Source: Acidimicrobiaceae bacterium
GTDB taxonomy: Bacteria; Actinomycetota; Acidimicrobiia; Acidimicrobiales; RAAP-2
NCBI GenBank assembly: GCA_003164275.1
Contig: PLSY01000270.1
Coordinates: 1-32,872 of the forward strand
Length of the DNA: 32,872 nt
Direction of reading: 5' to 3'
Part shown: piece after piece, positions 7,472 to 26,143 of the stretch
Layout: each line of letters begins with the position of its first letter
How positions within the stretch are numbered: position 1 is the stretch's first letter
Program-made: the position numbers and the translations under genes
The notes under the pieces: model-generated
Told to the model about the DNA's origin: nothing
Database searches by the model: none
Seen by the model: only the letters and a program-made list of their open reading frames with translations

Positions 7472-7486
7472 CTGACTGACCGTCAG
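7472..7486. promoter_or_regulatory. CTGAC-N5-GTCAG operator, site A
   Basis: CTGACTGACCGTCAG lies between the divergent deacylase (minus) and MscS (plus) genes. It is one of four sites of this pattern in the window. On the minus strand a TAAACT hexamer overlaps its edge, with TCGGCA 18 bp upstream, a plausible promoter for the deacylase that the site would cover. Confidence 0.55.
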
Positions 7487-7599
7487 TTTACGGCACCCGG
7501 CCGGACGCTGCCGATCGCCGGTCCCGGGGGCGTCGATGGTAGTTTCCGGGGATCCACACCTCTTGGCTCCAGGACCACCTCCTCCCCGTCGTCGTCCTC

Positions 7600-8397
7600 T
7601 TGTTGGGCGCAGGGTTGCTCGTCCGCTTCGCCCACTGGGTGGGGGCGAGGCGACGCCGGTGGATCGACGTGCAGATCCGGCTCCAGATCGAGGCGGGGGC
7701 AGCGGCATCTGAGGGCATGAAGCGCTCACGGGCCATCAGCGAGGCGGTCGAGTGGGTTGCCGTGGCCCTTACCTACTTCATCGCCTTCATCCTGGCCTTC
7801 GACCGGCTAGGGGTGCCGCTCACCACCCTGGTCGCCCCGGCCACGGTCGTCGGCATCGGCCTCGGTTTCGGCGCCCAGCAGATGGTGGGCGACCTCCTGG
7901 CCGGGTTCTTCCTGTTCGCCGAGCACCAGTTCGCCTTCGGAGACGTGATCCGACTCTCGGTCCCCGGCCAGACGGCGGGCATCACCGGAACGGTCGAGGA
8001 GCTCACTCTCCGGGTCACCAAGCTGCGGACGGCCCAGGGCGAACTGGTCGTGGTGCCGAACAGTGCTCTGCGCCAGGTGACCAACCTGTCCAAGGACTGG
8101 TCGAGGGCAGTCATCGACATCCCCGTGCTCGTCACCGAGGACTTGGATCATGTGACCTCGATCCTCCGGGACGTGGTGGGCGCCATGGCGGCCGACAGCC
8201 ACTGGAGCGAGCTCCTCCTCGGCGATCCGGTCGTGGCAGGCGTGGAGGCCATCGACGTCGGCTACGTGCAGCTCCGCCTCATCGCCCGCACCCTGCCTGG
8301 ACGACAGTTCGAGGTGGCGAGGGAGATCCGCCTTCGGGCCACGAATGCCTTGCGATCAGCGGGGATCAGCTCGCCATCGGGTGGTGGGGACGGATGA
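7600..8397 (+). CDS. Mechanosensitive ion channel, MscS family (5' end uncertain)
   Basis: This is a small MscS-type channel that releases solutes on osmotic downshift. From the TTG at 7600 it has 265 aa: the rest of TM1, an Arg-rich loop, TM2 (VEWVAVALTYFIAFILAF), and the pore helix TM3 with LVAPATVVGIGLGFGAQQMVGDLLAGFFLFAEHQF. Then come the beta domain (GDVIRL, GTVEELTLRVTKLR, VVVPNS) and the alpha/beta vestibule domain. The TTG lies inside TM1 and has no Shine-Dalgarno; the frame stays open upstream to a TAG at 7540 and encodes the missing start of TM1 (SWLQDHLLPVVVLL). An ATG at 7535 with a GGGGGCG Shine-Dalgarno would join this frame if one G were removed from the run at 7548-7551. A sequencing error or a recent frameshift is likely. 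The stop overlaps the next gene's ATG. Confidence 0.85.
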   Translation: MLGAGLLVRFAHWVGARRRRWIDVQIRLQIEAGAAASEGMKRSRAISEAVEWVAVALTYFIAFILAFDRLGVPLTTLVAPATVVGIGLGFGAQQMVGDLLAGFFLFAEHQFAFGDVIRLSVPGQTAGITGTVEELTLRVTKLRTAQGELVVVPNSALRQVTNLSKDWSRAVIDIPVLVTEDLDHVTSILRDVVGAMAADSHWSELLLGDPVVAGVEAIDVGYVQLRLIARTLPGRQFEVAREIRLRATNALRSAGISSPSGGGDG

Positions 8398-8915
8398 GCA
8401 GCGGCATGGACGAAGAGCAGTCGCTCACCGGAGTCCCGATGAGCCCCGGAGGAACACCGGCGGCCGAGGAGAAGCGACAAAGCGGTCTGGCCGGCTTCAT
8501 GTCGGTGCCGGTCAACCCGAAGTTTCCCATCCGACGGTCGACGCTGTTGATGGCGGTGGCGTTCTTGGGCTTCGGCACAGTACTCTATTTCAACCCTCCG
8601 GCCAGCCAGGGCGTGGTGGTGACCACGAACAACGGCTCAGTGTTCATTCCCGGCCTGACCACGACCACCACTACGGCCACGACCACGACCACCACTACGA
8701 CCACGTCGACCACCACCACGACCCGTCCGACCACGACCACCACTACGACAACGGGACAGCAGGCGACCTCGACGACCCGTCCGACCACCACCACCACGAC
8801 GGGCCCGGGCGCCACCACCACTACGTCGGCGCCGTCATCGTCGACGTCGGGTCAGGGTGCCGGATCGGCTACGACGACAACGGGCGGCGGCTCCTCGTCG
8901 ACCACGAGGCCCTGA
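8394..8915 (+). CDS. Single-pass membrane protein with a Thr-rich extracellular tail
   Basis: This 173-aa protein has a short cytoplasmic N-terminus (about 1-45), one transmembrane helix (about 46-65, RRSTLLMAVAFLGFGTVLYF), a short stalk, then about 95 residues made almost only of Thr with some Ser, Pro, Arg, Gly and Ala. The tail resembles mucin-like, possibly O-mannosylated stalks of actinobacterial envelope proteins; no catalytic domain is present. The ATG overlaps the MscS stop (ATGA, 8394-8397) and has a GGTGGGGA Shine-Dalgarno, so it is translationally coupled to the channel. Low complexity means homology searches will mislead. The function is unknown; a partner or cell-wall tether for the channel is speculation from coupling alone. 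Confidence 0.7.
   Translation: MSSGMDEEQSLTGVPMSPGGTPAAEEKRQSGLAGFMSVPVNPKFPIRRSTLLMAVAFLGFGTVLYFNPPASQGVVVTTNNGSVFIPGLTTTTTTATTTTTTTTTSTTTTTRPTTTTTTTTGQQATSTTRPTTTTTTGPGATTTTSAPSSSTSGQGAGSATTTTGGGSSSTTRP
8658..8830 (+). repeat. ACC/ACG trinucleotide-rich microsatellite coding for poly-Thr
   Basis: Long runs of acc/acg/act Thr codons, with blocks such as acgaccaccactacg repeated. The region is inside the Thr-rich protein gene and likely to vary in length by slippage. Confidence 0.75.
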
Positions 8916-8961
8916 CGGGTTCGCCCCTCGCCCCCGCCTCGGCGACTGGGCCCCCGGACGA

Positions 8962-9963
8962 CTAGCCGGCGGTCATAGCGGAGAGGGACTGGGCCAGGGA
9001 CTCGGCGAGCTGGTCTCCGTCTCCGAACTGCGTGGCCAGCACCCGGGCCCGCTTGTAGGCCAGGTGGGCGGGGATCTCCCACGTGAAGCCCATGCCACCG
9101 TGGACCTGGATGCAGGCCCGTCCGTTGGTCATCGCCGCCTCGTCGGCCAAGAGCTTGGATCCGAACGCGGCCATCACCGGATCACCGACGTCGGGCTGGT
9201 CGATGGTCACCGCCGCCGCTTGGACGGCACATCGGGCCAGCTCCGTACGCACGGCCATGTCGGCGCAGATGTGCTTGATGGCCTGGAAGCTGCCAATGGG
9301 GCGGCCGAACTGTCGGCGTTGCTTGGCGTAGTCGACGGCCAGCTCGGTCGTCCATCCGGCCATACCCACCTGGAGGGCGGCGGTCAGCACGGCGCCGTCC
9401 CGCCTCCACCACTCGGAGATCTCCGGTCCGGCGATGGGCGTCCCGGTCGGTAGGGAGGTGAGAGCCCACACCGGGGTGAGCGGGTCCATCGGGCGATCGA
9501 GCTTGGTGGCCTCGAGCGACCGAGGATCGAGTGAGGCGATGCCCTCGTCCGACAGGACAAGCAGGACATCGAGGTCGTCCAGGTGCTCGATGATCACCGG
9601 CAGTGCCGTGGTGGCCGACGGCCCGCGGTCCTCCACCAGGCCGACAACGACGGAGCCATCGTCTGCTCCGTCGACGAGTCCTGCGGCCAGATGGGTGGCC
9701 ACCAGCGGACCGGGTACGAGCGCTCGGCCGAGCTCTTCGAAGACCAGGGCGGCCTCGGCGAGACCGAGGCCCACACCACCGGCCTCCTCTGCCAGGCACA
9801 AGTTGAACACGCCGGCCTCTCCGAGCTGCTGCCAGCCCTTTCGGTCGATCACCTTGTCGGCCATCTCGAGGGCACGCACCTGCTCGAGGCCGAACTGGCC
9901 CTCACAGAGCCGACGCACGCCTTCGGCCAGATCGGTCTGGAACTCGTTCAGCTCGAAATCCAT
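8962..9963 (-). CDS. Acyl-CoA dehydrogenase, beta-type subunit (FadE)
   Basis: This is a 333-aa acyl-CoA dehydrogenase fold protein, shorter than homomeric ACADs (about 380 aa) because its middle beta domain is reduced. It keeps the FAD/interface motifs RRQFGRPIGSFQAIKH (about 216-231) and IQVHGGMGFTWEIPAHLAYKRA near the C-terminus. It follows a longer ACAD gene with a 47-bp gap on the same strand. Paired long and short FadE genes of this kind encode the alpha2beta2 heterotetramers (for example FadE28-FadE29, ChsE1-ChsE2) that dehydrogenate steroid side-chain CoA thioesters in M. tuberculosis. That role here is inference. The start is ATG 9963 with a GAGGAG Shine-Dalgarno. Confidence 0.87.
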   Translation of the reverse strand: MDFELNEFQTDLAEGVRRLCEGQFGLEQVRALEMADKVIDRKGWQQLGEAGVFNLCLAEEAGGVGLGLAEAALVFEELGRALVPGPLVATHLAAGLVDGADDGSVVVGLVEDRGPSATTALPVIIEHLDDLDVLLVLSDEGIASLDPRSLEATKLDRPMDPLTPVWALTSLPTGTPIAGPEISEWWRRDGAVLTAALQVGMAGWTTELAVDYAKQRRQFGRPIGSFQAIKHICADMAVRTELARCAVQAAAVTIDQPDVGDPVMAAFGSKLLADEAAMTNGRACIQVHGGMGFTWEIPAHLAYKRARVLATQFGDGDQLAESLAQSLSAMTAG

Positions 9964-10010
9964 GGTCTACTTCCGCTCCTCGGGACTCAAACGGGGGGTG
10001 TGGTCTGCGC

Positions 10011-11231
10011 TCATGCGCCTGTCTTTGCCGGTGTGGCCGCCGCTGGCTCTTTCGGGAGGCCGAGGACCCGTTCTCCGACGATGTTGCGTTGGATCTGGGA
10101 GGTGCCGGCGGCGACCGTCATCGAGATGCCGCGGAACCAGTCTTCGATCATGATGTCGGCCTGCAGCGAGCCGAGACCGTCTGTCCCCTCGAGCGGGTCA
10201 GCGGCGAGACCCGAGCGTCCGAGCAGTGACAAGGTGAACTCACCCAGCTTCGTCCTCATTTCGGTATAGGCCAGCTTGAACAACGTGCCGCCGACGCCGG
10301 GGATGCCCGTGCGTGCTGCCTGGGAGACGATGCGTCTGATCAGTGCCCACAGGCCGTCTATCTCGGCCCGGAGGTGAGCTGCCTGCCTGCGGATTCCCTG
10401 GTCGGACCACACCCCTGTCCGCTTGGCCATGGCCACCGCGGCGTCCAGGATCTCGAAGGCCTCGAGGAGGTCGCCGACGAAGGCGGTGCCCCGTTCGAAG
10501 CTCAAGGTCACCATGGTCACCCGCCAGCCGTCGTTCTCCTCGCCGACCCGGTTGGCCACGGGCACCCGCACCTCGTCGAGGAAGAGCTCGGCAAAATCGC
10601 TCTGGGCGCTGATGGTGGTGAGGGGTCGAATCTCGACGCCCGGGCTGTCCATGGGCAGGATCAGCCAGGAGATCCCGCGGTGACGACTGTCCTCCCCGCC
10701 CGTCCTGACCAGGAGCTCGCAGTAGTCGGCCACCTCAGCGTGGCTCGTCCAGATTTTCGAGCCGGTGACCACATAGTCGTCGCCGTCCCGGACGGCTCGG
10801 GTCCGCAGCGACGCCAGGTCGCTGCCCGCGTCGGGCTCCGAGAAGCCCTGACACCAGACCTCCTCCCCCTTCAAGATGGGAGGGAGGAAGCGTTGGCGCT
10901 GCTCAGAGGTACCTTCAGCGATGATCGTCGGGCCGGCATGGAGCAGGCCCACGAAGTTGATCCCGACATACGGCGCATGGGCTCGTTCCAGCTCTTCTTT
11001 GAAGATGAGCTCCTCGACCGGGGTTGAGCCCCGACCCCCGCCTTCGACAGGCCACGCGATCCCGGCGTAGCCGGCGTCGAAGAGCAGACGCTGCCAGTGG
11101 GTGTCGTAAGCGCGCCGCTCCGGCCAGTCGTTGGCGGAGGGCTTGTCCGGAAGCCCGGGCAGCGTCTGGGCGAGCCAGTCCCGCAGTTCGCCGCGGAACG
11201 CCTGCTCGGCATCGGAGTATCGAAGATCCAT
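10011..11231 (-). CDS. Acyl-CoA dehydrogenase, alpha-type subunit (FadE)
   Basis: This is a 406-aa acyl-CoA dehydrogenase with the N-terminal helical domain (MDLRYSDAEQAFRGELRDWL), the signature WCQGFSEPDAGSDLASLRTRA (about 131-151), KIWTSHAEVADY, the mid beta domain, and the C-terminal AAGTSQIQRNIVGERVLGLPKE motif. It is the long partner of the ACAD gene downstream. The WCQG(F/Y)SEP form is typical of the FadE30/FadE17-like branch associated with steroid or branched-chain acyl-CoAs. It is preceded by a 46-aa ORF at 23 bp and by the operator/promoter at 11396-11431, so transcription probably starts there. The last ~12 residues (PAAATPAKTGA) are an extra tail. Confidence 0.88.
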   Translation of the reverse strand: MDLRYSDAEQAFRGELRDWLAQTLPGLPDKPSANDWPERRAYDTHWQRLLFDAGYAGIAWPVEGGGRGSTPVEELIFKEELERAHAPYVGINFVGLLHAGPTIIAEGTSEQRQRFLPPILKGEEVWCQGFSEPDAGSDLASLRTRAVRDGDDYVVTGSKIWTSHAEVADYCELLVRTGGEDSRHRGISWLILPMDSPGVEIRPLTTISAQSDFAELFLDEVRVPVANRVGEENDGWRVTMVTLSFERGTAFVGDLLEAFEILDAAVAMAKRTGVWSDQGIRRQAAHLRAEIDGLWALIRRIVSQAARTGIPGVGGTLFKLAYTEMRTKLGEFTLSLLGRSGLAADPLEGTDGLGSLQADIMIEDWFRGISMTVAAGTSQIQRNIVGERVLGLPKEPAAATPAKTGA

Positions 11232-11254: not shown

Positions 11255-11395
11255 TCACTTGAAGTCGAGATCGTAGAGCTTGATGGTGCTGGGCCGCACG
11301 ACCAGACTGTCCCGTGGGCCCAAGAAGATGGCCATCTCCCCAAGAGCCGACACGGCGACGCGCTGGTCGGTGGGGCTGACGGGCATACCGGCCAT
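11255..11395 (-). CDS. 46-aa small protein at the head of an ACAD operon (unrecognised)
   Basis: The ORF begins MAGMPVSPTDQRVAVSALGE and ends TIKLYDLDFK (46 aa). It lies 23 bp upstream of the alpha ACAD start on the same strand. A -10-like TACACT is placed exactly 6 nt before its ATG, with the CTGAC-N5-GTCAG palindrome in the -35 region, so it would be the first and leaderless gene of the ACAD operon. It has no signal peptide, membrane segment or known motif. I do not recognise a family. It may be a small protein, or a translated leader that only serves to load ribosomes ahead of the ACAD genes. Confidence 0.5.
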   Translation of the reverse strand: MAGMPVSPTDQRVAVSALGEMAIFLGPRDSLVVRPSTIKLYDLDFK

Positions 11396-11431
11396 CGGTC
11401 GAGTGTACCGGCAGTTCTGACGGTCCGTCAG
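11396..11431 (-). promoter_or_regulatory. Leaderless promoter with CTGAC-N5-GTCAG operator, site B
   Basis: Read on the minus strand: CTGACGGACCGTCAG (11431-11417, a palindrome perfect but for its central base), 9 nt, TACACT (-10, 11407-11402), 6 nt, ATG (11395). The TGAC of the palindrome falls where the -35 should be, so a bound repressor would exclude RNA polymerase. A second inverted repeat, GGTCTG-CCGGT-CAGACC (11431-11447), adjoins it and overlaps the SDR stop codon. Confidence 0.6.
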
Positions 11432-11440
11432 GTCTGCCGG

Positions 11441-14012: not shown

Positions 14013-14044
14013 TGAGGTCCGGTCGCCCGAACGTCGGGACCTCA
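14013..14044. terminator. Hairpin between convergent CHAP and ACAD genes
   Basis: TGAGGTCC (14013-14020) pairs with GGACCTCA (14037-14044) around a 16-nt loop, overlapping the ACAD stop codon. There is no T-tract. It is a possible bidirectional terminator. The remaining ~80 bp of the gap shows nothing. Confidence 0.35.
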
Positions 14045-15079
14045 GGCGGTTGCCAACAGCGAGGCAAGCACGCGGGAACGGTGGTCGTCCGCCGATCCCC
14101 ACGCCTCGGACAGCGCCCAGGCCCTCTTCAAGAACAGGTGGAGGTCGCACTCCCAGGTGTAGCCGATAGCCCCGTGGACCTGGAGGGAGACCCGAGCGGC
14201 CTCGCTGGCCGCGTCCGATGCATAGGCCTTGGCCGCCGATGCCGAACGCGACGCCGTGGGCTCGTCCTCTTCCAGGGCCCAGGCGGCGCCGTAGACCATG
14301 GGCCGAGCGAACTCGAGTTTCACCTGGGCGCCGGCGAGCAGGTGCTTCACGGCCTGGAACGACCCGATGGGCTTGCCGAACTGCTGACGCTCCTTCGCGT
14401 AGTCAGCGGCGACACCGACCATCCGGGCTGACAGGCCGAGCAGCTCGGCTGCGGTGGCCACGGCGGCGCGGTCTTCGATGGCGGCGATGAGCGAGGCGGC
14501 CTCGGGACCGGTGGCGACCACGGTGGCCGATGACGGCGACCAGTCCGGAGTCCCGAGTCGCCGGGTCGGGTCGAGGGACGGTACCGACGTGACCGCCGCG
14601 TCCCGGCCGGGCACGACATGGAGCTCCCTGTCGAGGCCCTCTGTCCCTGTGGCGAGCACCAGGAGCTCGGCGCCGTCGGCGCCAGCCACCGGGGTACCAG
14701 GAGCCGACGAGGTGCCGACGGCCGCCGTGGCGGCGCCAGAGGCGATGGCCTCCAGCCAGCCGGTCGCATCAGACGTGCCGAGTGCGGCGAACAGGGGAGC
14801 GGCAAGGGCGGTCGTGGCCACCAGGGGTTCGGGGAGGGCGGCCCACCCTGCCTCCTCGACGAGAGGCACCAGGTCCACCAGCCCCAGCCCGAGGCCTCCT
14901 TGGGCTTCGGGCACGGTGAGCCCGACAACGCCAAGGTCAGCCAGGGTCATCCAGCGCTGGCTGTGTGATGCCGGGTCGACGAAGGCAGCCCGCAGGTGCT
15001 TAGGGGTGCACTCTTTGGCCAGGACCTGGCGCACCGCCTCTCGAAACTCGTCCTGCTGATCGGTGAATGCGAAGTGCAT
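14042..15079 (-). CDS. Acyl-CoA dehydrogenase, beta-type subunit (FadE)
   Basis: This is a 345-aa short-form ACAD, starting MHFAFTDQQDEFREAVRQVL. It has RQQFGKPIGSFQAVKH in the C-terminal helical domain and VSLQVHGAIGYTWECDLHLFLKRAW near the end; the middle domain is short. Its ATG lies 13 bp after the stop of the alpha-type gene, with a GAGGAG Shine-Dalgarno. The open frame reaches 15334 but the extra N-terminus overlaps the upstream gene and is not ACAD-like. Together with 15093-16259 it forms a second heteromeric ACAD pair in the window. The pairing fits steroid-type alpha2beta2 dehydrogenases; the substrate is unknown. Confidence 0.87.
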   Translation of the reverse strand: MHFAFTDQQDEFREAVRQVLAKECTPKHLRAAFVDPASHSQRWMTLADLGVVGLTVPEAQGGLGLGLVDLVPLVEEAGWAALPEPLVATTALAAPLFAALGTSDATGWLEAIASGAATAAVGTSSAPGTPVAGADGAELLVLATGTEGLDRELHVVPGRDAAVTSVPSLDPTRRLGTPDWSPSSATVVATGPEAASLIAAIEDRAAVATAAELLGLSARMVGVAADYAKERQQFGKPIGSFQAVKHLLAGAQVKLEFARPMVYGAAWALEEDEPTASRSASAAKAYASDAASEAARVSLQVHGAIGYTWECDLHLFLKRAWALSEAWGSADDHRSRVLASLLATA

Positions 15080-15092
15080 GCCCGTCTCCTCT

Positions 15093-16259
15093 TCAGCCTC
15101 GGGGCAGACCGAGCATGCGCTCGGCCACCACGTTCCGCTGGACCTCGTTGGTACCGGCGTAGATCGGGCCGGCCAAGGCGAACAGGTAGCCATCGAGCCA
15201 TGGCGCATTGACTCCGTCGCCGTGGATCTCTGCCTGTGACCCGAGCAGGGCGAGGGCCGTGCGGTGGATGGTGAGGTCGGTCTCAGACCAGTGGATCTTG
15301 TTGGCCGATGCCTCGGGGCCGACCGAGCCGCCATTCAGGACCCTCGTGGCCGTCCACAGGGTGTTGAGCCGGTAGGCCTCGGCGTCCATCCAGGCCTGGG
15401 CGACGTCGTCGGCGTGACGGGCGGCCCGGGCCGGCTGGTCGGCCAGGCGCTCGGCGTACAGGCGCACGAGCCGCCTGGCTGCCTCGGTGTAGCGAGCCGG
15501 GCTGCGGAGACTCAGCCCTCGCTCCGAGCCAGCTGTGGCCATGGCCACGTTCCACCCCCGCCCTACACCTCCGAGCACCTGGTCATCGGGCACGAAGACG
15601 TCCTCGAAGAAGATCTCCGCGAAGCCGGTCTCGCCGTCGATCTGGGGGATCGGCCGGACGGTCACCCCGGGCGAGTCCATCTGGAGGAGGAAGTAGGTGA
15701 GCCCCCGGTGCCGCTCGGCGTCGGGGTCGGTGCGAAACAGGCCGAAGCACCATTCGGCGAACGCGCCCCTGGATGCCCACGTCTTTTGACCGGAGAGCAG
15801 CCAGCCGTCGTCGGCATCCGACCGGACCGCCCGGCTGCGGATGCCGGCGAGGTCGCTGCCCGCATCAGGCTCTGACCACCCCTGGCACCAGATCTGCTCG
15901 GCTGAGGCCATGGCGGGCAGGAACCTCTGCTTTTGCTCCTCGGTCCCGAACTCGAAGATGGTCGGGGCCAGGAGGAACACGCCGTTCTGGCTCACCCTGA
16001 GTGGTGCTTGCGCCTTCCAGTACTCCTCTTCGAACACCAGCCACTCGAGGATGCCGACCCCCCGTCCCCCGAACTCCTCGGGCCATGACACGACGGACCA
16101 GCGGTCTTCGTACATGGTGTGCTCCCATGCCCGATGGGCCTCGAATCCCTCGGCCGTGTCGAGTGAGGGCAGGGAGCCCGGTGCCGGGGCATGGGCGGCC
16201 AGCCACGCCCCGGCCTCGGCCCGAAAGGCCTCTTGCTCCGGGGTGAACCGCAGATCCAT
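15093..16259 (-). CDS. Acyl-CoA dehydrogenase, alpha-type subunit (FadE)
   Basis: This is a 388-aa ACAD with N-terminal MDLRFTPEQEAFRAEAGAWL, the signature WCQGWSEPDAGSDLAGIRSRA (about 124-144), KTWASRGAFAEWCF, a full beta domain and the C-terminal GTNEVQRNVVAERMLGLPRG. I chose ATG 16259 by analogy with the other alpha subunit (MDLRY...). ATG 16271 and TTG 16277 are alternatives, and none has a strong Shine-Dalgarno. It is divergent from the thiolase gene, and the 123-bp gap holds operator site C. It shares the WCQG and AERxLGLP signatures with the alpha subunit at 10011, so the two pairs are probably distant duplicates. Confidence 0.87.
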   Translation of the reverse strand: MDLRFTPEQEAFRAEAGAWLAAHAPAPGSLPSLDTAEGFEAHRAWEHTMYEDRWSVVSWPEEFGGRGVGILEWLVFEEEYWKAQAPLRVSQNGVFLLAPTIFEFGTEEQKQRFLPAMASAEQIWCQGWSEPDAGSDLAGIRSRAVRSDADDGWLLSGQKTWASRGAFAEWCFGLFRTDPDAERHRGLTYFLLQMDSPGVTVRPIPQIDGETGFAEIFFEDVFVPDDQVLGGVGRGWNVAMATAGSERGLSLRSPARYTEAARRLVRLYAERLADQPARAARHADDVAQAWMDAEAYRLNTLWTATRVLNGGSVGPEASANKIHWSETDLTIHRTALALLGSQAEIHGDGVNAPWLDGYLFALAGPIYAGTNEVQRNVVAERMLGLPRG

Positions 16260-16346
16260 CGGTATGTCCATTGCCAAAGCCCATCATGTTCGGGTGTCGA
16301 TTGGGGGCCGTCGTTCGAAGTGCGTCGACGGACGAGTGGGTGAAAT

Positions 16347-17630: not shown

Positions 17631-20600
17631 CGGTCTCGGCCGGCTCGTCGGGTGCCTGGGCGGCGGGCAGGGCCCGGGAAACGGGCGGGGTGATCTGTTT
17701 GTTGAAGTTCACTCGGTCCGCCTGGGTCGGGCGGGACATCAGATAGCCCTGGTAGAGGTCGCAGCCCAGCTCGGTGATGCGCTGGAGCTGAATGGGCGTC
17801 TCCACCCCTTCGGCCAGGACGACCAGGTCGAGGGCCTTGGACAGCTGGACGATGGCGGCCACGATGGCCTCGTCGTTCTGGAACGTCCCGAGGCCGTCGA
17901 CGAATGACTTGTCGATCTTCAGGACCTTGACCGGGAAGCGCTTCAACTGGGCGAGCGACGAGTAGCCGGTGCCGAAGTCGTCGATGGCGAGGCCCACCCC
18001 CATCTCATGGATGCCGCCCAGCATGGCGATGGAGGCCGAGGTATCGCTCATCAGCATGGACTCGGTGACTTCCATGACCAACGCCTCGGGAGGAAGCCCG
18101 GAGTCGGCCAGAGCCGAGGCGATCGTCTCCAACAGCTCGTTATCGCTCAGCTGGTGGGCCGACAGGTTGACGGTGACATAGGCGTCCTCGGCCCCGGGCA
18201 GCTCCTTGCGCCACTTGGCCATGGTGTTGCAGGCCTCGCGCAGCACCCATCGGCCGAGGGCGAAGATCAGGTCAGTCTCCTCGGCGAAAGGGATGAACTC
18301 CATGGGTCCGAGCAGCCCACGGGTGGGGTGATGCCACCGGACCAACGCCTCCATGGCCACGATCCGATCGTCGCTGACATTGGCGATGGGCTGGTAGTGG
18401 ATGGTCAGTTCGTTGCGCTCGATCGAGTGGCGCAGGTCGTCGTAGATCTCGAGTCTGGCCACGGACTCGGCTCGGAGTGACTCGTCGAACACCTCGACCC
18501 GCGAACGTCCCTTGTTCTTGGCCTGGAACATGGCCACGTCCGCTTGTTGGAGAATGTCCTGGGCGGTCTGTCCGCCCTTTTGGACAAAGGAGATGCCGAC
18601 ACTGCAGGTGACCACCACACTGCGGCCCGACGAAAGCTGGACGGGCTCGGCCAGCAGTCTCGAGTACTCGGTGGCCAGGCTGATAGCGACACTGGAGTCG
18701 TGGACGTTGCGGCACAGCACGACGAACTCGTCCCCGGAGAACCGGCTGACCGCGTCCCCAGCCCGGACGGCTGACTTGAATCGCTGGGCCAGAGCCAACA
18801 GAACCTCGTCGCCGCTGGCGTGCCCGAACGAGTCGTTGACCATCTTGAACCGGTCGAGGTCGATGAACAGCACGGCGATGTTGGAGCCCCGCTGCATGGA
18901 GACCATGAGCTCACGCTCGAGCTCCTCGTTGAACAGTGATCGGTTCCCAAGCCCCGTCAGGGAGTCGTGGTAGGCCAGCCAGTGGAGCTGTGCCTCGGCC
19001 GCCTTTCTGTCGGTGACATCGGTGAACGAGCACACGACCATCGGAGCGTCCACCTGCCCGGCGCCCGACAGCAGGCGTGAGCTGAGGGACAGCCACTGGC
19101 GGCGCCCGCTCCCATCGGTGACACCGATGACCACGTCGTCCTCGGACTCGCCGGTCGCCAGTGTCTTGGCGTAGGGGAACATGTCGGCCGACATCGGATG
19201 GCCGGCCGCGTCGATGGCGATCGAGGTGCCAGTGAAGATCTGATGGCTGTACCCGTTGACCAGGCGGTCACCCAGGATGCGCTCTGACGCCTCGTTGTGG
19301 GCGGACACCATGCCCTGCTCGTCGAAGAGCACGATGCCCTCGCTGAGGGAGGCCACGACCGCCTCGTAGCGCTCCTCGGCCGCTCGGCGGCCGGCCTCGG
19401 CCTGGCGGGCGTCGGTGAGCTCGGTGCACACGACCACCCATCCCGAGGGCTGGGTGTCATCGTCGATGAGAGGGTCGATGGACAACAGGACGTCGACGCT
19501 CGAGCCGTCCTTGCGGCGGTGGGTCTGCTGCCCGCGCTCGAGGACGGCGGCGCTCTCGGTGCGGTTGGCCGAGACCACCGCGCTGATGGATAGGCCGGCG
19601 ACCTCGTGCTCGCTCCAGCCGTAGACGTCCTGGGCGGCCTCGTTCCAGCTCTCGATCTTGCCATTGGCATCGATTCCGATGATGGCGTCGGAGACGTGGG
19701 CGACGAGGCTCGCTCGGTACCTGCTGGCCGCCTCGGCCGCCCGGCGCTCCGAGATGTCACGGGCGATGACCTGGTAGGCCGGCTCGCCGGCCCAGGTGGT
19801 GCGGACGCTGGTCGTCTCCATGACCGTGACGGTTCCGTCGGTGGCCACCACTCGGACCTCACCATGCTCGAGGAACTGGCCGTTCTCGGTCAGCTGGGAG
19901 AGGCGGGCAACCACGTCTGGGATGTCGCTCGGGTCCATGAAGTCGGTCATGGGCTTTCCGTAGTACTGGGCGAGGGCCTGGGCGTAACCCTCCTCGTTCG
20001 TCGCACCTGTCAGGCGGGCAGCCGCCCGGTTGCCGTAGACGAGCAGGCCGTTCTGGTGGACGAACACCACGTCGGGAGAGACCTCGGTGAGCAGGCGGTA
20101 GCGATCGACCAGTTCGCCCAGCTCCCGCTCGAATCGCTGCTGGGACGTGACGTCGACCACCACACCGGCGTAGAACGTTCGAGTCCCTCCCTGGTCACCC
20201 TGGTCACCCTGGTCGGACCCGTCGGCGATAGTCATCTGCGACGCCCTCACGACCACCCGGTGGGCCACTCCGTCTGGGCACATCACGACGGTGTGCAGAT
20301 CGTAGTTAGCAACCGGGGTGCCGACCCGGATGGGGGCAAGGATCGGGGCCAGGAGAGCGGCGGCGGCCGTGGCCCCCGTGCCGTACTGGGCCTGGGCCGG
20401 CACGGTATCTGCCAGCGAGGTGGCGGCCGAGTAGGGGTCGGTGGAGTCGAGTGAGCCCGGGTCATTGTGAAGCACCGAGAATCCGAGGACGCCGACTTCA
20501 AATCCGAAGAACTCTTCGATCGGTGTAGACCAGATGACCGTGTCACGGGCCATGTCATAAACCCACGTCACCGATTGCAAGTCTTTGGCATCTAGGTCGA

Positions 20601-20778
20601 CACCCTGCGACAACACGAATGCACGGTCCCCGAGCGCCGAGTCCGGACGATCTACCCGGTCGAATGACACCCGTGAGCGCTGGTTGCCGTAGCTACTCGT
20701 CGTGGTCATAGAACTCAGGTATCGGCGCAATGCAGAGCGAGCTTTAGCCTTGAACGCCCCGAGTTGACCCCCCGACAT
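17608..20778 (-). CDS. PAS-GGDEF-EAL cyclic-di-GMP signalling protein
   Basis: This 1056-aa protein is probably cytoplasmic, with no transmembrane segment. The N-terminal ~215 residues look like a degenerate PAS-type sensor with a DQGDQGDQGG microrepeat at about 189-198. PAS domains follow at about 222-345, 352-460 and 468-595, each ending near a short coiled linker. The GGDEF domain (about 597-765) has S681-G-D-E-F in place of GGDEF, an alternative found in some active cyclases, and an I-site R672-A-G-D675 for product inhibition. The EAL domain (about 780-1025) has an intact EAL (810-812), NLSAHQL, EVTES, DDFGTG (933-938), KIDKSF and AEGVET, so phosphodiesterase activity is expected. Whether it makes or breaks c-di-GMP cannot be told. 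The 3' end is 19 bp from the convergent thiolase. Confidence 0.92.
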   Translation of the reverse strand: MSGGQLGAFKAKARSALRRYLSSMTTTSSYGNQRSRVSFDRVDRPDSALGDRAFVLSQGVDLDAKDLQSVTWVYDMARDTVIWSTPIEEFFGFEVGVLGFSVLHNDPGSLDSTDPYSAATSLADTVPAQAQYGTGATAAAALLAPILAPIRVGTPVANYDLHTVVMCPDGVAHRVVVRASQMTIADGSDQGDQGDQGGTRTFYAGVVVDVTSQQRFERELGELVDRYRLLTEVSPDVVFVHQNGLLVYGNRAAARLTGATNEEGYAQALAQYYGKPMTDFMDPSDIPDVVARLSQLTENGQFLEHGEVRVVATDGTVTVMETTSVRTTWAGEPAYQVIARDISERRAAEAASRYRASLVAHVSDAIIGIDANGKIESWNEAAQDVYGWSEHEVAGLSISAVVSANRTESAAVLERGQQTHRRKDGSSVDVLLSIDPLIDDDTQPSGWVVVCTELTDARQAEAGRRAAEERYEAVVASLSEGIVLFDEQGMVSAHNEASERILGDRLVNGYSHQIFTGTSIAIDAAGHPMSADMFPYAKTLATGESEDDVVIGVTDGSGRRQWLSLSSRLLSGAGQVDAPMVVCSFTDVTDRKAAEAQLHWLAYHDSLTGLGNRSLFNEELERELMVSMQRGSNIAVLFIDLDRFKMVNDSFGHASGDEVLLALAQRFKSAVRAGDAVSRFSGDEFVVLCRNVHDSSVAISLATEYSRLLAEPVQLSSGRSVVVTCSVGISFVQKGGQTAQDILQQADVAMFQAKNKGRSRVEVFDESLRAESVARLEIYDDLRHSIERNELTIHYQPIANVSDDRIVAMEALVRWHHPTRGLLGPMEFIPFAEETDLIFALGRWVLREACNTMAKWRKELPGAEDAYVTVNLSAHQLSDNELLETIASALADSGLPPEALVMEVTESMLMSDTSASIAMLGGIHEMGVGLAIDDFGTGYSSLAQLKRFPVKVLKIDKSFVDGLGTFQNDEAIVAAIVQLSKALDLVVLAEGVETPIQLQRITELGCDLYQGYLMSRPTQADRVNFNKQITPPVSRALPAAQAPDEPAETEKAPAAD

Positions 20779-20841: not shown

Positions 20842-22059
20842 TCAGTCAGAGGGTTCGGCGACCACCACCACGGTGTTAAATCCACCGAGCCCAAGGGAGG
20901 ACTTGAGGGTCACCCCCGGTACCGCCGGTGAGAGCCCGTCCACCAGCTTCGGGTGCCCGGGTGCGACCTGACGGGGGGCGGGCACGTAACCGGTCTGGTA
21001 GGCGTAGATGGTGGCCAGCATCTCCACGGCGGCCGCCGCCGACTGGCAGTGGCCGACCAGGGGCTTCACTGAGAAGATCCCATGGGCATCTGGCAGCAGC
21101 TGGTCGAGGACCGCCAGCTCGGCGGCGTCGCACAGAGCAGTTCCCGGCCCATGGGCATTGAGGTAGGCCACCTCGTCGGGGGTGATGCCGGCATTCTCCA
21201 TGGCCAGGCGGAAGCACCTGAACATCTCCACGTGGTCGGGGTTGACGGCCGTCGGGTGGTAGCCGTCCATGGTGATGGCACCACCCAGGATCGAGGCGTA
21301 GGACCCCCGGGATTGATTGGAGAGCACCATGGACACTGCCGCCTCGCCACCGACGAAGCCCCGGCTCCCCTCCTGGAAGGGCCGACAGCCCTCGAAGGGC
21401 GGCAGGCTGAGCACGGCCGCTCCGAGGTCGCTGAAGGCACGGAGGTGCTGAGGAATGCCCGACATGTCGGTGGCGATCAGGATCACGTCGGTGGCAATGC
21501 CAGAATCGAGCCAGGACTTGGCGGTGATCATGGCGGCATTGGCTGACGCGCACATGGCAGAGACCGACATGGCCGGCCCATGGAAGTCGAACTCCTTCAT
21601 GAGTCGGGAGATCGACGTGGAAGGCATCATGTTGATCCACGTCTTTGGCCGCACCCTGGCGTTGCCCGACTTATAGAACGCACTCCACATCTCGGCGTCG
21701 CCTTTTTCGAGGCTGTGGACCACGCCGACCACCGGGCCCGGCTTCCAGCCCCGCTCGACGGCGTCGGCGATAGCCTCACGGGCGGCGAAGAGCATCGATT
21801 TCATGAAGCGACTCGGGCCATCCCGGCGATCGCCCTCGTCGGCCACCAGTGACAGATAGGCCTGGCCACCGTCAACGTATCCTTCGAGGCCCGTGACCAG
21901 TTTGACTGCGCTTTCACCGAGCAAGAAGCCGTCCCACAGGTGCTTTTTCCCCCAGCCGTAGCCGGTCACGGCACCCACTCCGGTGATGTTGGTGGAGGAA
22001 TGGCGGCGGCTTTGCCTCGATGCTGGCTCGCTCGAGGATGACTGGACAGGCTCCGACAT
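20842..22059 (-). CDS. Beta-ketoacyl synthase (FabF/KAS II-like)
   Basis: This is a 405-aa thiolase-fold condensing enzyme. The Cys-His-His triad is complete: C170 (SVSAMCASANAA), H303 (LNAHGPGTALCDAAE) and H337 (KPLVGHCQSAAAAVE), with the supporting Lys at 332 and the C-terminal SLGLGGFNTVVVV. It would elongate acyl chains from malonyl-ACP. Motifs deviate from canonical FabF (GPGTALCD in place of GTSTPxGD), so it may belong to a specialised branch such as secondary lipid or polyketide synthesis. No ACP or ketoreductase gene is adjacent. A Ser-rich N-terminal 20 residues precede ITGVGAVTGYGWG. The start ATG has an AGGAG Shine-Dalgarno and an unusual hairpin leader. Confidence 0.88.
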   Translation of the reverse strand: MSEPVQSSSSEPASRQSRRHSSTNITGVGAVTGYGWGKKHLWDGFLLGESAVKLVTGLEGYVDGGQAYLSLVADEGDRRDGPSRFMKSMLFAAREAIADAVERGWKPGPVVGVVHSLEKGDAEMWSAFYKSGNARVRPKTWINMMPSTSISRLMKEFDFHGPAMSVSAMCASANAAMITAKSWLDSGIATDVILIATDMSGIPQHLRAFSDLGAAVLSLPPFEGCRPFQEGSRGFVGGEAAVSMVLSNQSRGSYASILGGAITMDGYHPTAVNPDHVEMFRCFRLAMENAGITPDEVAYLNAHGPGTALCDAAELAVLDQLLPDAHGIFSVKPLVGHCQSAAAAVEMLATIYAYQTGYVPAPRQVAPGHPKLVDGLSPAVPGVTLKSSLGLGGFNTVVVVAEPSD

Positions 22060-22400: not shown

Positions 22401-23501
22401 TCAGCCGGTCGTTTGGCCTGCCAGCCGGTCGAGCACTGCTGTGGCCTCAGCGACGATGCGGGACACCAGTTCGGCCACGGTCGGCAACTCGCTGATCTCC
22501 CCGACCACCTGACCGGTGGGCAGGACGCCGACATCGGTCCGTCCGTCCACCAGGGCTGCTTTGGTCATCATGGGAGCGTTGGCGGCCATGACCACCTGGG
22601 TCCAGGAGAGCTCGCTGTTCTGCTTCATGGCGAATCCCTCTTTCATGAGGGCGAGGAGCGACGTGTTGGTCTCGGTCCGGAAGGCGTAGGCGTTTGTGAG
22701 GGCCCGCGGCATGTTCCGAGCCCAGCCGGCCTTCTCCAGGTGGTCCACCAGCTCAGTGCGAATCACCCGTTGCGGGGCTCCGTCGATGGCCGTCGACACG
22801 ACCGTGCCCGTGACCGGCGTGCCCAGGTAGACCTTTTTCACCTCGTCTGGGACACGGCTCTCTTGGGTGAGCAGGAACCGGGTGCCCATGGCGATGCCAG
22901 AGGCCCCATAGGCCAGGGCGGCGACGAGGCCCCGACCGTCGAAGAAGCCGCCGGCGGCAATGACGGCCACGTTGTCGCCCACCGCGTCGACCACGGCCGG
23001 AGTGAGGAGAGACGTCGGCACCGACCCGGTATGACCGCCACCCTCCCCGCCTTGGGCGATGACCGCGTCGACGCCCCAGCCGGCCACCTTTTCGGCATGG
23101 CGACGGGCTCCGATGGTCGGCATGACCACCAGGCCTGCGTCGCGACACCGAGTGACCAGGTCGGGATTGGGGGCCTGGGCAAAGCTGGCCACGCGCACCC
23201 CGTTCTCGATCATGAGAGCCACTCGGGCACCGACATCGGCTACGTCCGTGCGCATGTTCACGCCGAAGGGCCGGTCGGTGCGGGACCGCACGTCGGCTAT
23301 GGCCGTCACCAGCTCGGGAAAGGTCATGGTGGCGGAGGCCAGAATGCCCAGTCCACCCGCCTCGGCAGTGGCCGCCACCAAGCGGGGCCCGGCCACCCAC
23401 CCCATCCCGGTCTGGACGATCGGGTACTCGATCCCCACCAGGTCACAGAACGGCGTGCGCAGGGCCGGGTGCACACGCCGGTTCGTTCCGGACCCGCTCA
23501 T
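22401..23501 (-). CDS. ipdC: IpdC-like FMN-dependent nitronate monooxygenase-family enzyme
   Basis: This is a 366-aa TIM-barrel flavoprotein of the nitronate monooxygenase / enoyl reductase family. The N-terminus PFCDLVGIEYPIVQTGMGWVAG, the phosphate-binding QGGEGGGHTG (about 143-152) and AAGGFFDGRGL-AAL-GASGIAMGTRF are the family hallmarks. In M. tuberculosis the gene in this position (Rv3553, IpdC) acts on HIP-derived CoA thioesters before ring opening. The identification rests on gene order and family: it follows ipdB with a 4-bp ATGA overlap (23498-23501), as the last gene of echA20-ipdA-ipdB-ipdC. The length is close to the mycobacterial protein (about 355 aa). Confidence 0.85.
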   Translation of the reverse strand: MSGSGTNRRVHPALRTPFCDLVGIEYPIVQTGMGWVAGPRLVAATAEAGGLGILASATMTFPELVTAIADVRSRTDRPFGVNMRTDVADVGARVALMIENGVRVASFAQAPNPDLVTRCRDAGLVVMPTIGARRHAEKVAGWGVDAVIAQGGEGGGHTGSVPTSLLTPAVVDAVGDNVAVIAAGGFFDGRGLVAALAYGASGIAMGTRFLLTQESRVPDEVKKVYLGTPVTGTVVSTAIDGAPQRVIRTELVDHLEKAGWARNMPRALTNAYAFRTETNTSLLALMKEGFAMKQNSELSWTQVVMAANAPMMTKAALVDGRTDVGVLPTGQVVGEISELPTVAELVSRIVAEATAVLDRLAGQTTG

Positions 23502-24280
23502 GGCTTGACCTCTCGGTCCCGCAGCGAGCGGGGGTCGAGCACGGTGCGAATCAACTCGAGCTCCTCTGGGGTTGGCAGGCGGGTGTCGGGTACCTGATCA
23601 GACATGGCCAACTCGAAGCCGGTGGCGTCGATGACCTCGTCGATGGTGACTCCGGGATGGAGCGAGCGGATGCGCATGACCTTGTCCGGTGTCTCGAAGT
23701 CGAACACCCCCAGGTTGGAGATGACGTGGCGGATCTCGTGGAAGCGGGAGCCGGCAGGCCCGGCTGCTGCCGCCCGTTCGTACCCCACGCCGCACACCAC
23801 ATCGACGTGCTCGACAAAGGAGCGCTTCGAGTGGTTGGGCACCCAGTAGCTGGTCGAGTGGTTGACCGTGTTGCCGGGCGCACCACGGACCCCGACCAAC
23901 TGGGCCTTGGGGCGCGACCAATCGCCGATGGCGCTGATGTTCTGATTGCCGGTTCGGTCGATCTGGGAGGCCATCATGATGAGATTGCGCCGTCCCGACC
24001 AGACGACGTCGAACACCTTCCGGTAGGGCATGTGCGATTCGAGAACCAGGCTGTCCGGCGCGGCACCGATCGGCGGTGCCCCCTCCACCAGGGCGGCATC
24101 GCCGTCTGTGAGCACGAGGTCCGGGGAGAAGGTGAGCCGGGCAAGACGGGCGCCAATGGCGGGGGCCGTGCCGAAAGCACTGGCCATGATCTCGCCGTCG
24201 CCGCGGAAGACCTCGGCGCAGGCTATGGCGCAGTACTCGGGTCGGGTGATCTCGTCCGTTTGGGCGGGGGATACGCTCAC
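23498..24280 (-). CDS. ipdB: IpdB, beta subunit of the steroid ring-opening hydrolase (CoA-transferase fold)
   Basis: This 260-aa protein has the family I CoA-transferase beta fold and begins with GTG at 24280, which overlaps the ipdA stop (GTGA). The open frame extends upstream to 24484 but that part lies inside ipdA. Recognisable blocks are TRPEYCAIACAEVFRGDGEI, the nucleotide-side SPDLVLTDGDAALVEG, VVWSGRRNLIMMASQIDRTGNQNIS, GAPGNTVNHSTSYWVPNHSKRSFVE and LGVFDFETPDKVMRIRSLHPGV. IpdAB in M. tuberculosis and Rhodococcus hydrolyses the last steroid ring (COCHEA-CoA) instead of transferring CoA. The same role is expected here from partner and operon order. Confidence 0.9.
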   Translation of the reverse strand: MSVSPAQTDEITRPEYCAIACAEVFRGDGEIMASAFGTAPAIGARLARLTFSPDLVLTDGDAALVEGAPPIGAAPDSLVLESHMPYRKVFDVVWSGRRNLIMMASQIDRTGNQNISAIGDWSRPKAQLVGVRGAPGNTVNHSTSYWVPNHSKRSFVEHVDVVCGVGYERAAAAGPAGSRFHEIRHVISNLGVFDFETPDKVMRIRSLHPGVTIDEVIDATGFELAMSDQVPDTRLPTPEELELIRTVLDPRSLRDREVKP

Positions 24281-25188
24281 TTCACGATCTCCTTGCTCGG
24301 GGCATTGTCGCCGGCGACTCGCTGCTGTGCCCGCTCGGCGGCGAACTCCTTCACCGCCGACTGGTACCCCGGCTCTTCCACCGCCAAGTAGCGCTCGACG
24401 AACGAAGCCCACTGATCGGGATCGCCGGCCGCAGCCACGTACGCCTTTTGGAATGCCTCGTCCCGGGGGTAGTCCGGCACACACGCGGTGAAGTGGGCGC
24501 CGTTCGGGGTTTCCACCACGCCGTCGGTCAAGAGCCGACTGATGGACATGGTCTGGATCGGTCCCTCCGAGGAGAACCGGTCGGTGCCGATCAGCCGTTC
24601 GGTGGTCATGAAGCGACGGTCGGCGGCGCCGAGGAAGATCTCGTCGAAGAACGGATCTGGCCCGAGGATCTGACCCGTCCCTTTTGCATCGGCCCGGTTG
24701 ACATGGACGATGGCCGCGTCGAGTCGGAGCGCAGGCATGGCCACCAGCTCCTCGCCGTCGTCATAGGGGGAGATGACCGTCTTGATCGATGGGTTGAAAC
24801 GGAGCACGTCGGAGCCGAGCCCTGCTCTCGTCGGCAGGAAGGGGACACGCTGGGACGCCGCCAACAGCCCCACGTAGAACATGCCCTCATCGACCTCCAT
24901 GGCCTCGATGGCACCGTTCTGCCGTGCCGCTTTGAAGTGCGGGTCGGTCGGGATCGAATCGAGGGTGACAAACCCGTAGACGGCCTTTTTCACCTTGCCG
25001 GCTGCGCACAGGAGGCCGACATCGGGCCCTCCGTATGACACCACGGTCAGGTCGGTCAGGTCCGAGCGGAGTATGGCCCGGATGGCGGCCATGGGTTTGC
25101 GACGAGAGCCCCATCCCCCGATGCCGATGGTCATGCCCGAGCTGAGCTCACCGATTAGCTCGTCCAGTCCCAGTCGTTTGTCAGCCAT
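24277..25188 (-). CDS. ipdA: IpdA, alpha subunit of the steroid ring-opening hydrolase (CoA-transferase fold)
   Basis: This is a 303-aa alpha subunit of the CoA-transferase fold. It shows GMTIGIGGWGSRRKPMAAIRAI (residues about 19-40), the glycine-rich phosphate region, VVSYGGPDVGLLCAAGKVKK, IEAMEVDEGMFYVGLLAAS (about 94-112, with Glu98 and Glu101) and LPTRAGLGSDVL. These are characteristic of IpdA and not of 3-oxoacid CoA-transferases. It pairs with IpdB to open the remaining ring in HIP catabolism. A GAGGTGG Shine-Dalgarno lies just before the ATG. The gene follows echA20 on the same strand after a 90-bp gap that includes a small hairpin, so an internal promoter or processing site is possible. 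Confidence 0.9.
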   Translation of the reverse strand: MADKRLGLDELIGELSSGMTIGIGGWGSRRKPMAAIRAILRSDLTDLTVVSYGGPDVGLLCAAGKVKKAVYGFVTLDSIPTDPHFKAARQNGAIEAMEVDEGMFYVGLLAASQRVPFLPTRAGLGSDVLRFNPSIKTVISPYDDGEELVAMPALRLDAAIVHVNRADAKGTGQILGPDPFFDEIFLGAADRRFMTTERLIGTDRFSSEGPIQTMSISRLLTDGVVETPNGAHFTACVPDYPRDEAFQKAYVAAAGDPDQWASFVERYLAVEEPGYQSAVKEFAAERAQQRVAGDNAPSKEIVK

Positions 25189-25258
25189 GCCCCACCTCGT
25201 GCTGTCGGCGTGGTGCTGTGATGCCTCTGGTCAACTCCCTTTTCCTCCTCAATCGGCA

Positions 25259-25273
25259 GTGCCGGCTCGGCAC
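25259..25273 (-). terminator. Small hairpin between echA20 and ipdA
   Basis: GTGCC-GGCTC-GGCAC, 5 bp past the echA20 stop in the direction of transcription. There is no T-tract. It may attenuate or process the transcript between echA20 and ipdA. Confidence 0.3.
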
Positions 25274-25278
25274 CGGAT

Positions 25279-26037
25279 TCACTTCGTGGTGTCAGCGTCG
25301 CGTTTCTCGACGAATGCTGCCCGCTGCTCGTCGGCCACTCCGGCGACGTGGAGCTCGTAGGTGAAGCCCTGTTCCAGGCGGTAGCTCAGCTTCACATCCA
25401 CCGGGTCGATCCCGTTCAAGGATTCCTTTGCCCGTCGCAGGATGGTCGGGCTCTTGGCTGCGATGTCGGTGGCCACCTCGTAGGCCGTGTCCACCAGCTG
25501 ATCGGCGGGCACGACCTTCAGGACTGATCCGTAATGGTGCAGCTCGTCCGCCGTGGCCGGCTGGGCCGTGTAGACCATCGAGCGCATCCGGTGCTGTGGC
25601 ACCAACCGTGACAGGTGGGTGGCCGCTCCGAGTGCTCCCCGGTCCACTTCGGGAAGCCCGAAGGTGGCATCCTCGGAGGCAACGACGATGTCGGCATTCC
25701 CGGCAATGCCCACGCCTCCACCGAGGCAGAATCCGTGGACGGCGGCGATGACGGGGATCTCACAGTCGTAGACGGCGGCAAATGCGGCGAAGCAGCCCCG
25801 GTTGGCTCCGATGAGTGCCTCGTCCCCTTTGGCTTGGATCTCTTTGATGTCGACGCCGGCGCAGAAACCCCGGCCCTCGGCCCGCACGATCACCACTCGG
25901 TTCTCGGGGACCCGGCCGGCTTCCAGGATGGCCTCGGCCAGGCTGAACCACCCGGCGACATCGAGGGCGTTGACGGGGGGATGATCGATGACGACCTCGG
26001 CGATGCCGGGGACCTTCTGCAACGACAAGACGGGCAT
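25279..26037 (-). CDS. echA20: EchA20-like enoyl-CoA hydratase/crotonase (steroid D-ring opening)
   Basis: This is a 252-aa crotonase-fold protein beginning MPVLSLQKVPGIAEVVIDHPPVNALD. The oxyanion-hole elements are visible as EGRGFCAGVDIKEIQ and HGFCLGGGVGIAGNADIVVASEDATFGLPEVDRG. The start at 26037 has a GGAG Shine-Dalgarno and gives close to the 247 aa of M. tuberculosis EchA20; the open frame extends to 26118 without support. EchA20 hydrolyses the D ring of HIEC-CoA, giving the substrate of IpdAB, and the order echA20-ipdA-ipdB-ipdC matches Rv3550-Rv3553. It is divergent from an SDR gene, with operator site D between. Confidence 0.87.
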   Translation of the reverse strand: MPVLSLQKVPGIAEVVIDHPPVNALDVAGWFSLAEAILEAGRVPENRVVIVRAEGRGFCAGVDIKEIQAKGDEALIGANRGCFAAFAAVYDCEIPVIAAVHGFCLGGGVGIAGNADIVVASEDATFGLPEVDRGALGAATHLSRLVPQHRMRSMVYTAQPATADELHHYGSVLKVVPADQLVDTAYEVATDIAAKSPTILRRAKESLNGIDPVDVKLSYRLEQGFTYELHVAGVADEQRAAFVEKRDADTTK

Positions 26038-26128
26038 GTCGACTCCGGGTGGATCGGGCGCGCTCCCGAATGCAGCAGCTCCGACACCTCTTCGTCGGAC
26101 GTGACAACGGGCACGCACAGAGCGTGAT

Positions 26129-26143
26129 CTGATACAGCGTCAG
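26129..26143. promoter_or_regulatory. CTGAT-N5-GTCAG operator, site D
   Basis: CTGATACAGCGTCAG lies in the 137-bp divergent region between echA20 (minus) and the SDR (plus, GTG 26175). It is one mismatch from the CTGAC-N5-GTCAG pattern of sites A and B. A clear -10 at the spacing seen for sites B and C is not visible here; the SDR has its own AGGAG Shine-Dalgarno, so its transcript has a leader. Confidence 0.5.

Follow-up and report, generated by a model that had tools for sequence, protein, structure and literature searches.

A candidate TetR-family repressor and its putative palindromic operator in a steroid catabolism locus of Acidimicrobiia

Steroid genes of Mycobacterium are repressed by KstR (Rv3574), and a further TetR-type regulator, KstR2, has HIP-CoA as its ligand. 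KstR is described with the motif TnnAACnnGTTnnA in the accessible part of PMC1995591, and the operator of KstR2, the 14-bp AnCAAGnnCTTGnT, with three promoters in that of PMC3068626; steroid gene functions used here are those given in the accessible part of PMC5380842. Acidimicrobiia, represented here almost only by metagenome-assembled genomes (MAGs), also carry steroid ring-degrading genes. Their control was not found described in the papers searched, of which only parts were accessible: no study of how Acidimicrobiia regulate steroid catabolism was among the matches listed, and the accessible part of PMC4810484 mentions neither Acidimicrobi nor Ilumatobacter. Here, a stretch of 32,872 nucleotides from an Acidimicrobiaceae bacterium (GCA_003164275.1, contig PLSY01000270.1, positions 1 to 32,872), referred to as the window, was analysed for a palindrome, CTGAC-N5-GTCAG, that recurs between its acyl-CoA and steroid genes. 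Searches with six spellings of this pattern did not find it as a printed regulatory site in the papers searched, the matches being on unrelated subjects only.

The palindromic sites and their conservation

The four exact copies of the palindrome reported in the original prediction were each found at the positions given there, and one near-copy lies beside the first:

Operator 1, 7472-7486, CTGACTGACCGTCAG, divergent intergenic region between the Amidohydro_3 gene (-) and mscS (+)
Operator 2, 11417-11431, CTGACGGTCCGTCAG, leader of the acadA operon, co-directional intergenic region behind the stop of a short-chain dehydrogenase/reductase (SDR) gene
Operator 3, 16347-16361, CTGACACACCGCCAG, divergent intergenic promoter region between the acyl-CoA dehydrogenase (ACAD) gene acadB1 (-) and the thiolase gene (+)
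Operator 4, 26129-26143, CTGATACAGCGTCAG, divergent intergenic promoter region between echA20 (-) and an SDR gene (+)
Near-copy with one mismatch, 7419-7433, CTGACCCACGGTCAA, beside operator 1

The gene models agree with that prediction in placing all four sites between genes and three of the four in divergent regions, operator 2 being the co-directional one. On either strand, the exact pattern has four matches between genes, where 1000 dinucleotide shuffles of the intergenic stretches gave 0.038 on average, and four matches in the whole window against 0.41 expected (200 shuffles, maximum 3). The four sites are beyond chance, and the suggestion that the motif might be no commoner than in shuffled intergenic sequence does not hold. 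The one-mismatch pattern is unimpressive, with 17 matches in the window against 10.5 expected, so that within the window only the exact pattern carries weight. The near-copy at 7419-7433 was rejected as a second functional operator and is probably non-functional, because it is missing from the six other amidohydrolase promoters read.

The genes adjoining the four sites are as follows:

5657-7390 (-), Amidohydro_3 family hydrolase, the "deacylase" of the original prediction and likely target of operator 1
7669-8397 (+), mscS, MscS-type channel, divergent neighbour at operator 1, start uncertain
8962-11231 (-), ACAD pair, acadA1 (10011-11231) and acadA2 (8962-9963)
14042-16271 (-), ACAD pair, acadB1 (15093-16271) and acadB2 (14042-15079)
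16383-17588 (+), thiolase, FadA6-like by position and BLAST, a likeness short of proven orthology
22401-25188 (-), which we take to be the steroid ring C/D genes ipdA (24277-25188), ipdB (23498-24280) and ipdC (22401-23501), part of a ring C/D gene stretch that extends with echA20 over 22401-26037
25279-26037 (-), echA20, EchA20-type (NF005925, 406 bits against a cut-off of 260)
26175-27032 (+), SDR (NF005893, 356 bits against a cut-off of 255), likely target of operator 4

The names ipdA, ipdB and ipdC are based on Pfam families, gene order and the known steroid pathway.

Relatives were collected as 80 loci using the ACAD at 15093-16277 as query. Of these, 33 were assigned to Acidimicrobiia, either by a title naming Acidimicrobiales/Acidimicrobiaceae or Microthrix or, for some whose titles are unspecifically actinobacterial, by high identity; loci and genomes bear our labels L and G. 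A site was counted when it fell within 250-350 bp upstream of an orthologue, with the reversed pattern as control. The first gene of the acadA operon, Amidohydro_2-like, has a site upstream in 18 of 19 relatives, the sole miss being L026, and echA20 in 14 of 16. In the two echA20 misses (L020 and L024) a site does precede the match by 27-29 bp, at 2760 and 1441; a query start set too early probably explains why these were not counted, and the figure was left at 14/16. On the acadB1 side a site is present in 19/32 relatives and on the thiolase side in 18/29, while the smaller samples for the amidohydrolase (2/2) and mscS (3/3) are complete; for the amidohydrolase, a site was also found in all six other distinct loci read (L009, L094, L102, L115, L229 and L236, the last duplicated by L220). 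No upstream site was found for operon-internal and other genes, namely ipdC (0/17), ipdA (0/15), acadB2 (0/28), acadA2 (0/14), kas (0/12) and pntA (0/5). A site is within reach of pasEAL in 1/12 and of chap, which is divergent from the acadA operon, in 4/11, blurring the contrast with non-target genes. The reversed pattern gave zero in all 14 gene rows. The lack of conservation at orthologous promoters that would have spoken against the original prediction was not seen.

The whole-genome scan of related Acidimicrobiia proposed with that prediction likewise favours the pattern, CTGACN5GTCAG occurring 10, 9 and 8 times in G001, G002 and G003 against 2, 1 and 2 for the reversed pattern. Among the genes identified beside sites is that of FadD3 (728 bits against a cut-off of 657), accompanied by an NF005880 SDR and an ACAD. 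Further neighbours are a P450, amidohydrolases, a class III CoA-transferase, a nitronate-monooxygenase-like protein, a periplasmic binding protein, an ACAD whose gene is divergent from that of a protein bearing an OB_ChsH2_C domain, and, among relatives, a fadE30-like gene. Names matched to steroid targets rest on these bit scores for FadD3 and the EchA20-type protein, and on position and BLAST for fadE30 and the ipd genes. Within a wider set of loci, which were chosen for their sites or for the regulator gene described below, 87/100 strict sites are intergenic (86 distinct 25-mers). The 86 distinct intergenic sites of relatives give the consensus A-(T/C)-CTGACG-N3-CGTCAG-(A/G)-T, and information extends beyond the letters searched for, with frequencies of 0.83 for the G next to the core, 0.67 for A at -9 and 0.85 for T or C together at -8.

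The placement of the sites relative to promoters was also examined. Read towards the amidohydrolase, the edge of operator 1 is fused to TAAACT, a -10-like hexamer, and the left edge of the operator is fused to TAAACT or TAATCT in 6/7 distinct amidohydrolase promoters (the window, L009, L094, L102, L115 and L236, with L229 as the exception). Operator 2 is followed by a 46-codon open reading frame (11255-11395, -), located before acadA1, that starts with MAGMP and ends with IKLYDLDFK. Its two ends match a protein of about 400 amino acids, Amidohydro_2-like, at the same place in the relatives L003, L009, L014 and L023, and it is apparently an internally deleted remnant of that gene with the operator retained; the end of the site lies 21 bp before the ATG of the remnant. 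Operators fused to a -10-like hexamer or close to a start fit repression by blocking of RNA polymerase.

Some arrangements among the relatives are recorded as observations. Locus L099 has an identical operator pair at 4001 and 4023, a spacing of 22 bp or about two helical turns, between an ACAD and an HMG-CoA (3-hydroxy-3-methylglutaryl-CoA)-synthase-like protein with an OB_ChsH2_C domain, homologs of which with a site are also found in G139 (L247) and G219 (L253). The 13-mer TGACTCTACGTCA, read on either strand, is common to three genomes (L106 at 4001, G001 C25:45163 and G014 C20:57393), and in G002 it is upstream of a gene for a Peripla_BP_6 protein, a possible transporter target.

TetR2 as the candidate regulator

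The original prediction proposed a TetR-type regulon for acyl-CoA or steroid catabolism with a regulator not identified in the window. The shared operator and the steroid/acyl-CoA targets are upheld by the genome counts, promoter conservation and gene content described above; a likely regulator does lie in the window, where two divergent TetR genes are present:

2090-2692 (-), TetR1, KstR-like TetR protein (TetR_N and TetR_C_20), divergent from TetR2
2836-3630 (+), TetR2, proposed repressor (TetR_N and TetR_C_38, Pfam)

TetR2 is encoded about 3.8 kb from the nearest site and is present in 26/29 relatives (1e-25). It falls in no NCBIfam family at 1e-30 and has weak sequence similarity to EthR. 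An AlphaFold model with a predicted local distance difference test (pLDDT) score of 93 has a TetR fold, with the TetR_N helix-turn-helix (HTH) and a helical ligand domain, and its nearest solved fold is EthR of Mycobacterium tuberculosis, also of the TetR family (Foldseek, TM by target about 0.83, about 20% identity). EthR has targets that differ from those of the candidate TetR2 regulon, and its operator is not of the classical simple-palindrome form according to the accessible part of PMC4482099. The recognition-helix stretch S-P-A-x-F-Y-Q-Y-F of the TetR2 HTH is conserved in 53/53 aligned rows (51 genes).

The number of sites in a genome follows the presence of TetR2. The 47 genomes with TetR2 (E<=1e-50) have a mean of 11.8 sites against 1.2 for the control, with an excess of at least 5 in 45/47, whereas 36 genomes without a TetR2 match have a mean of 2.9 against 1.5, with such an excess in 4/36 (Mann-Whitney p 1.5e-13, uncorrected for kinship). 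The latter set consists of 33 of 227 non-matching genomes plus G018, G022 and G028; leaving out the ten genomes under 2 Mb, all of them in this set, gives p 6e-11. TetR2 was still missing at 1e-8 in 13 rechecked genomes, and the same query did match elsewhere. IpdA is found in 47/47 genomes with TetR2 and in 7 of the 36 without (33 of these searched); in those seven, sites and control matches number 8/2, 4/2, 2/2, 2/2, 3/1, 2/3 and 4/0, an excess of at least 5 in 1/7. Among IpdA-positive genomes only, the 47 with and 7 without TetR2 differ with p 3.9e-5, and the site excess follows TetR2, not merely steroid genes. In G022, TetR1 and IpdA are kept, TetR2 is missing and the locus, L026, has no site.

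The TetR gene with a site in its own promoter that was to be looked for was found among the relatives, not in the window: 22/55 homologous tetR2 loci have one. In the nearer set, TGACN5GTCA lies 33-60 bp before tetR2 in 11/27 loci, and in the more distant set a site is present in 11/28, counting L187 (relaxed pattern, CTGAT), one site that overlaps an extrapolated start, and L207 and L208, which are from genomes with a weaker, about 40% identical TetR2. In G024 and G025, where about 3.6 kb separates tetR2 from tetR1, the promoter with the site is that of tetR2, not that of tetR1. In G139 and G219, tetR2 (50% and 48% identical) is surrounded by clustered sites and is close to fadD3: the sites of G139 stand 15-37 bp before homologs of the fadE30-like gene, acadB1 and thiolase, that nearest fadD3 falling within a called gene, and G219 has a site 35 bp before fadD3.

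Proposed mechanism and alternative explanations

We consider it quite probable that the sites serve as operators for a single repressor of the TetR family, TetR2 being the most likely one, that replaces KstR2 in this lineage. The computed results behind this proposal are the conservation of the sites, their target genes, the co-occurrence with TetR2, the tetR2 own-promoter sites in some relatives, and, as described below, the failure to find a KstR2 ortholog and the rarity of its motif. A TetR2 dimer would bind the 15-bp palindrome CTGACG-N3-CGTCAG, and the bound operator, overlapping or abutting core promoters such as the TAAACT/TAATCT hexamer before the amidohydrolase, would block RNA polymerase. 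An intermediate of steroid breakdown, probably a ring C/D acyl-CoA, would release TetR2 and switch on the ipdABC/echA20, fadD3, fadE30-like, ACAD-pair, thiolase and SDR operons. The role of KstR2 and its AnCAAGnnCTTGnT motif in Mycobacterium and Rhodococcus would thereby fall to TetR2 in this lineage. Binding by TetR2 is a prediction from sequence, as is the direction of regulation, which, like the ligand, is also modelled on the biology of KstR2.

Several observations weigh against this proposal. No intact site is present in the tetR2 promoter of the window, 33/55 homologous tetR2 loci lack one, and 13/32 acadB1 promoters have none by the pattern used. A site excess occurs without TetR2 and without IpdA in G031, G048 and G059, where another regulator may use a similar operator, and the MAG G018 has IpdA and a site excess without a TetR2 match; G018, with two ipdA matches, may be a mixed bin, and MAG incompleteness can hide TetR2. 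The site counts cover the genomes with TetR2 at E<=1e-50 and those without a match, a further 46 having weaker TetR2 matches (1e-50 to 1e-25), and as the genomes are kin, the p values are optimistic and overstate independence. Of 23 strict sites, six fall within called genes, although in L096 this is due solely to a premature start call, and other sites adjoin genes without an evident steroid connection, such as those for DNA polymerase III alpha and for an AAA/acetyltransferase protein.

The absent own-promoter sites and the excess in G018, G031, G048 and G059 could also indicate that some other, unrecognised transcription factor binds the sites and that TetR2 merely travels with it. We judge this very unlikely, as own-promoter sites recur at tetR2 down to about 40% identity, and as a comparison by eye, limited to TetR genes, of 34 and 24 TetR HTH matches in G001 and G014 with 34 and 21 TGACN5GTCA matches placed none within 1.5 kb; there is thus no better TetR claimant in these two genomes, where tetR2 is not within that distance either. 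That the sites are palindromes arisen by chance, or terminator stems, and regulate nothing would suit the unremarkable one-mismatch count in the window, but is extremely improbable given the shuffles (0/1000 reached 4), the reversed-pattern controls, the conservation at orthologous promoters and the intergenic position of most strict sites in the loci read; a chance origin was rejected on the shuffles.

TetR1 is the remaining claimant, and it would bind the operator if its DNA preference had changed or widened in this lineage. It is adjacent to TetR2, present in 27/29 relatives (1e-15) and KstR-like, KstR being a known steroid repressor; its match to KstR in the PDB has E about 1e-30, and at 152 bits it is below the NCBIfam KstR cut-off of 280. 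A CTGAC site is found at 10/58 tetR1 promoter loci (57 genes, that of G022 being read twice), however all ten lie in regions shared with tetR2. The TetR1 HTH is nearly identical to that of M. tuberculosis KstR, and the canonical KstR motif is present at 4/58 of these loci. TetR1 and the sites also dissociate in both directions: G022 and G076 have a close TetR1 without a site excess of 5, and G112, G203, G216, G274 and G321 have an excess of 5 to 14 without TetR1 (E<=1e-20). On these grounds TetR1 was rejected as the operator binder, a role we hold to be very unlikely for it, and it is probably a separate regulator. In L132 and L137 (G017 and G026), TnnAACnnGTTnnA stands 25-28 bp before a KstR-like gene and CTGAC sites occur elsewhere in the same genomes, two predicted operator systems side by side.

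Other genes of the locus are noted here. A PAS-GGDEF-EAL protein (17608-20778, -) and an EAL protein (27087-28091, +) are encoded within the steroid locus, the former kept beside the thiolase in 13 relatives (L001-L003, L005-L009, L013-L015, L023, L069); this would be a link between cyclic di-GMP (c-di-GMP) and the steroid genes. A beta-ketoacyl-synthase-like protein (20842-22059, -) is below the NCBIfam cut-offs of its listed matches and adjoins ipdC in many relatives.

Comparison with KstR and KstR2

With KstR of Mycobacterium the locus shares a KstR-like protein, TetR1; the KstR motif TnnAACnnGTTnnA has no match in the window, hence none at the four sites, and was rejected as their identity. 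The KstR2 motif was rejected likewise, as the window has no full match to AnCAAGnnCTTGnT; a single core, CAAGNNCTTG, lies inside acadA2 at 9148. The view in the original prediction that the pattern differs from both published motifs is therefore sustained. The full KstR2 motif occurs in 1/33 Acidimicrobiia loci (L022) as opposed to 20/46 loci outside Acidimicrobiia. A KstR2 query read from L036, which matches KstR2 in the PDB (4w1u, E 3.5e-78), was searched at 1e-15 in 37 genomes and matched seven: three Rhodococcus/Nocardioides controls strongly, G031, with a KstR2-like protein, at 38%, G139 at 36%, and G003 and G019 at 31%. No ortholog-grade match was found in the relatives G001-G029, where the best is 31% and the other 27 have no match at 1e-15. 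Outside Acidimicrobiia, homologs of acadB1 accompany fadD3, a fadE30-like ACAD, an NF005880-type SDR and a thiolase in Rhodococcus, Nocardioides and Streptomyces loci; kstR2 is beside the thiolase in L029, L033, L036, L038 and L064, and acadB1 homologs are near kstR2 in Rhodococcus and Nocardioides loci.

A broader proposition, which we hold as evenly balanced, is that Acidimicrobiia have swapped the KstR2 part of the KstR/KstR2 scheme for a single widespread repressor, TetR2, and CTGACG-N3-CGTCAG, a pair that would govern ring C/D and side-chain steroid genes (the latter being a P450, ACADs, and a thiolase with an OB_ChsH2_C protein) and would sense a steroid CoA ester. This would make the locus a candidate case of a repressor and operator exchanged together over a conserved pathway. 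The candidate regulator, operator and regulon named here are open to test with one purified protein, and the operator may serve as a marker for further steroid genes, those located behind it, in uncultured actinobacteria.

The KstR2 regulon of Mycobacterium and Rhodococcus (Rv3548c-Rv3565) shares with the candidate regulon the targets fadD3, an ipdF-type SDR (NF005880), a fadE30-like ACAD, echA20 and ipdABC, and has in common with it ACAD pairs, a thiolase, a TetR-type regulator and operators in divergent promoters. It differs in its operator, 14 bp long as compared with an odd-length palindrome of 15 bp here, and in extent, with three promoters in the accessible part of PMC3068626 as opposed to between 4 and 26 strict sites, including chance matches, in each of the 47 TetR2-bearing genomes. 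TetR2 is also not a KstR2 ortholog. Many enzymes of the KstR2 regulon are thus present, but the operator and candidate regulator are not those of KstR2. Much of a known regulon is probably under a new pairing of repressor and operator, which differs from the known switches of the same genes in Mycobacterium and Rhodococcus.

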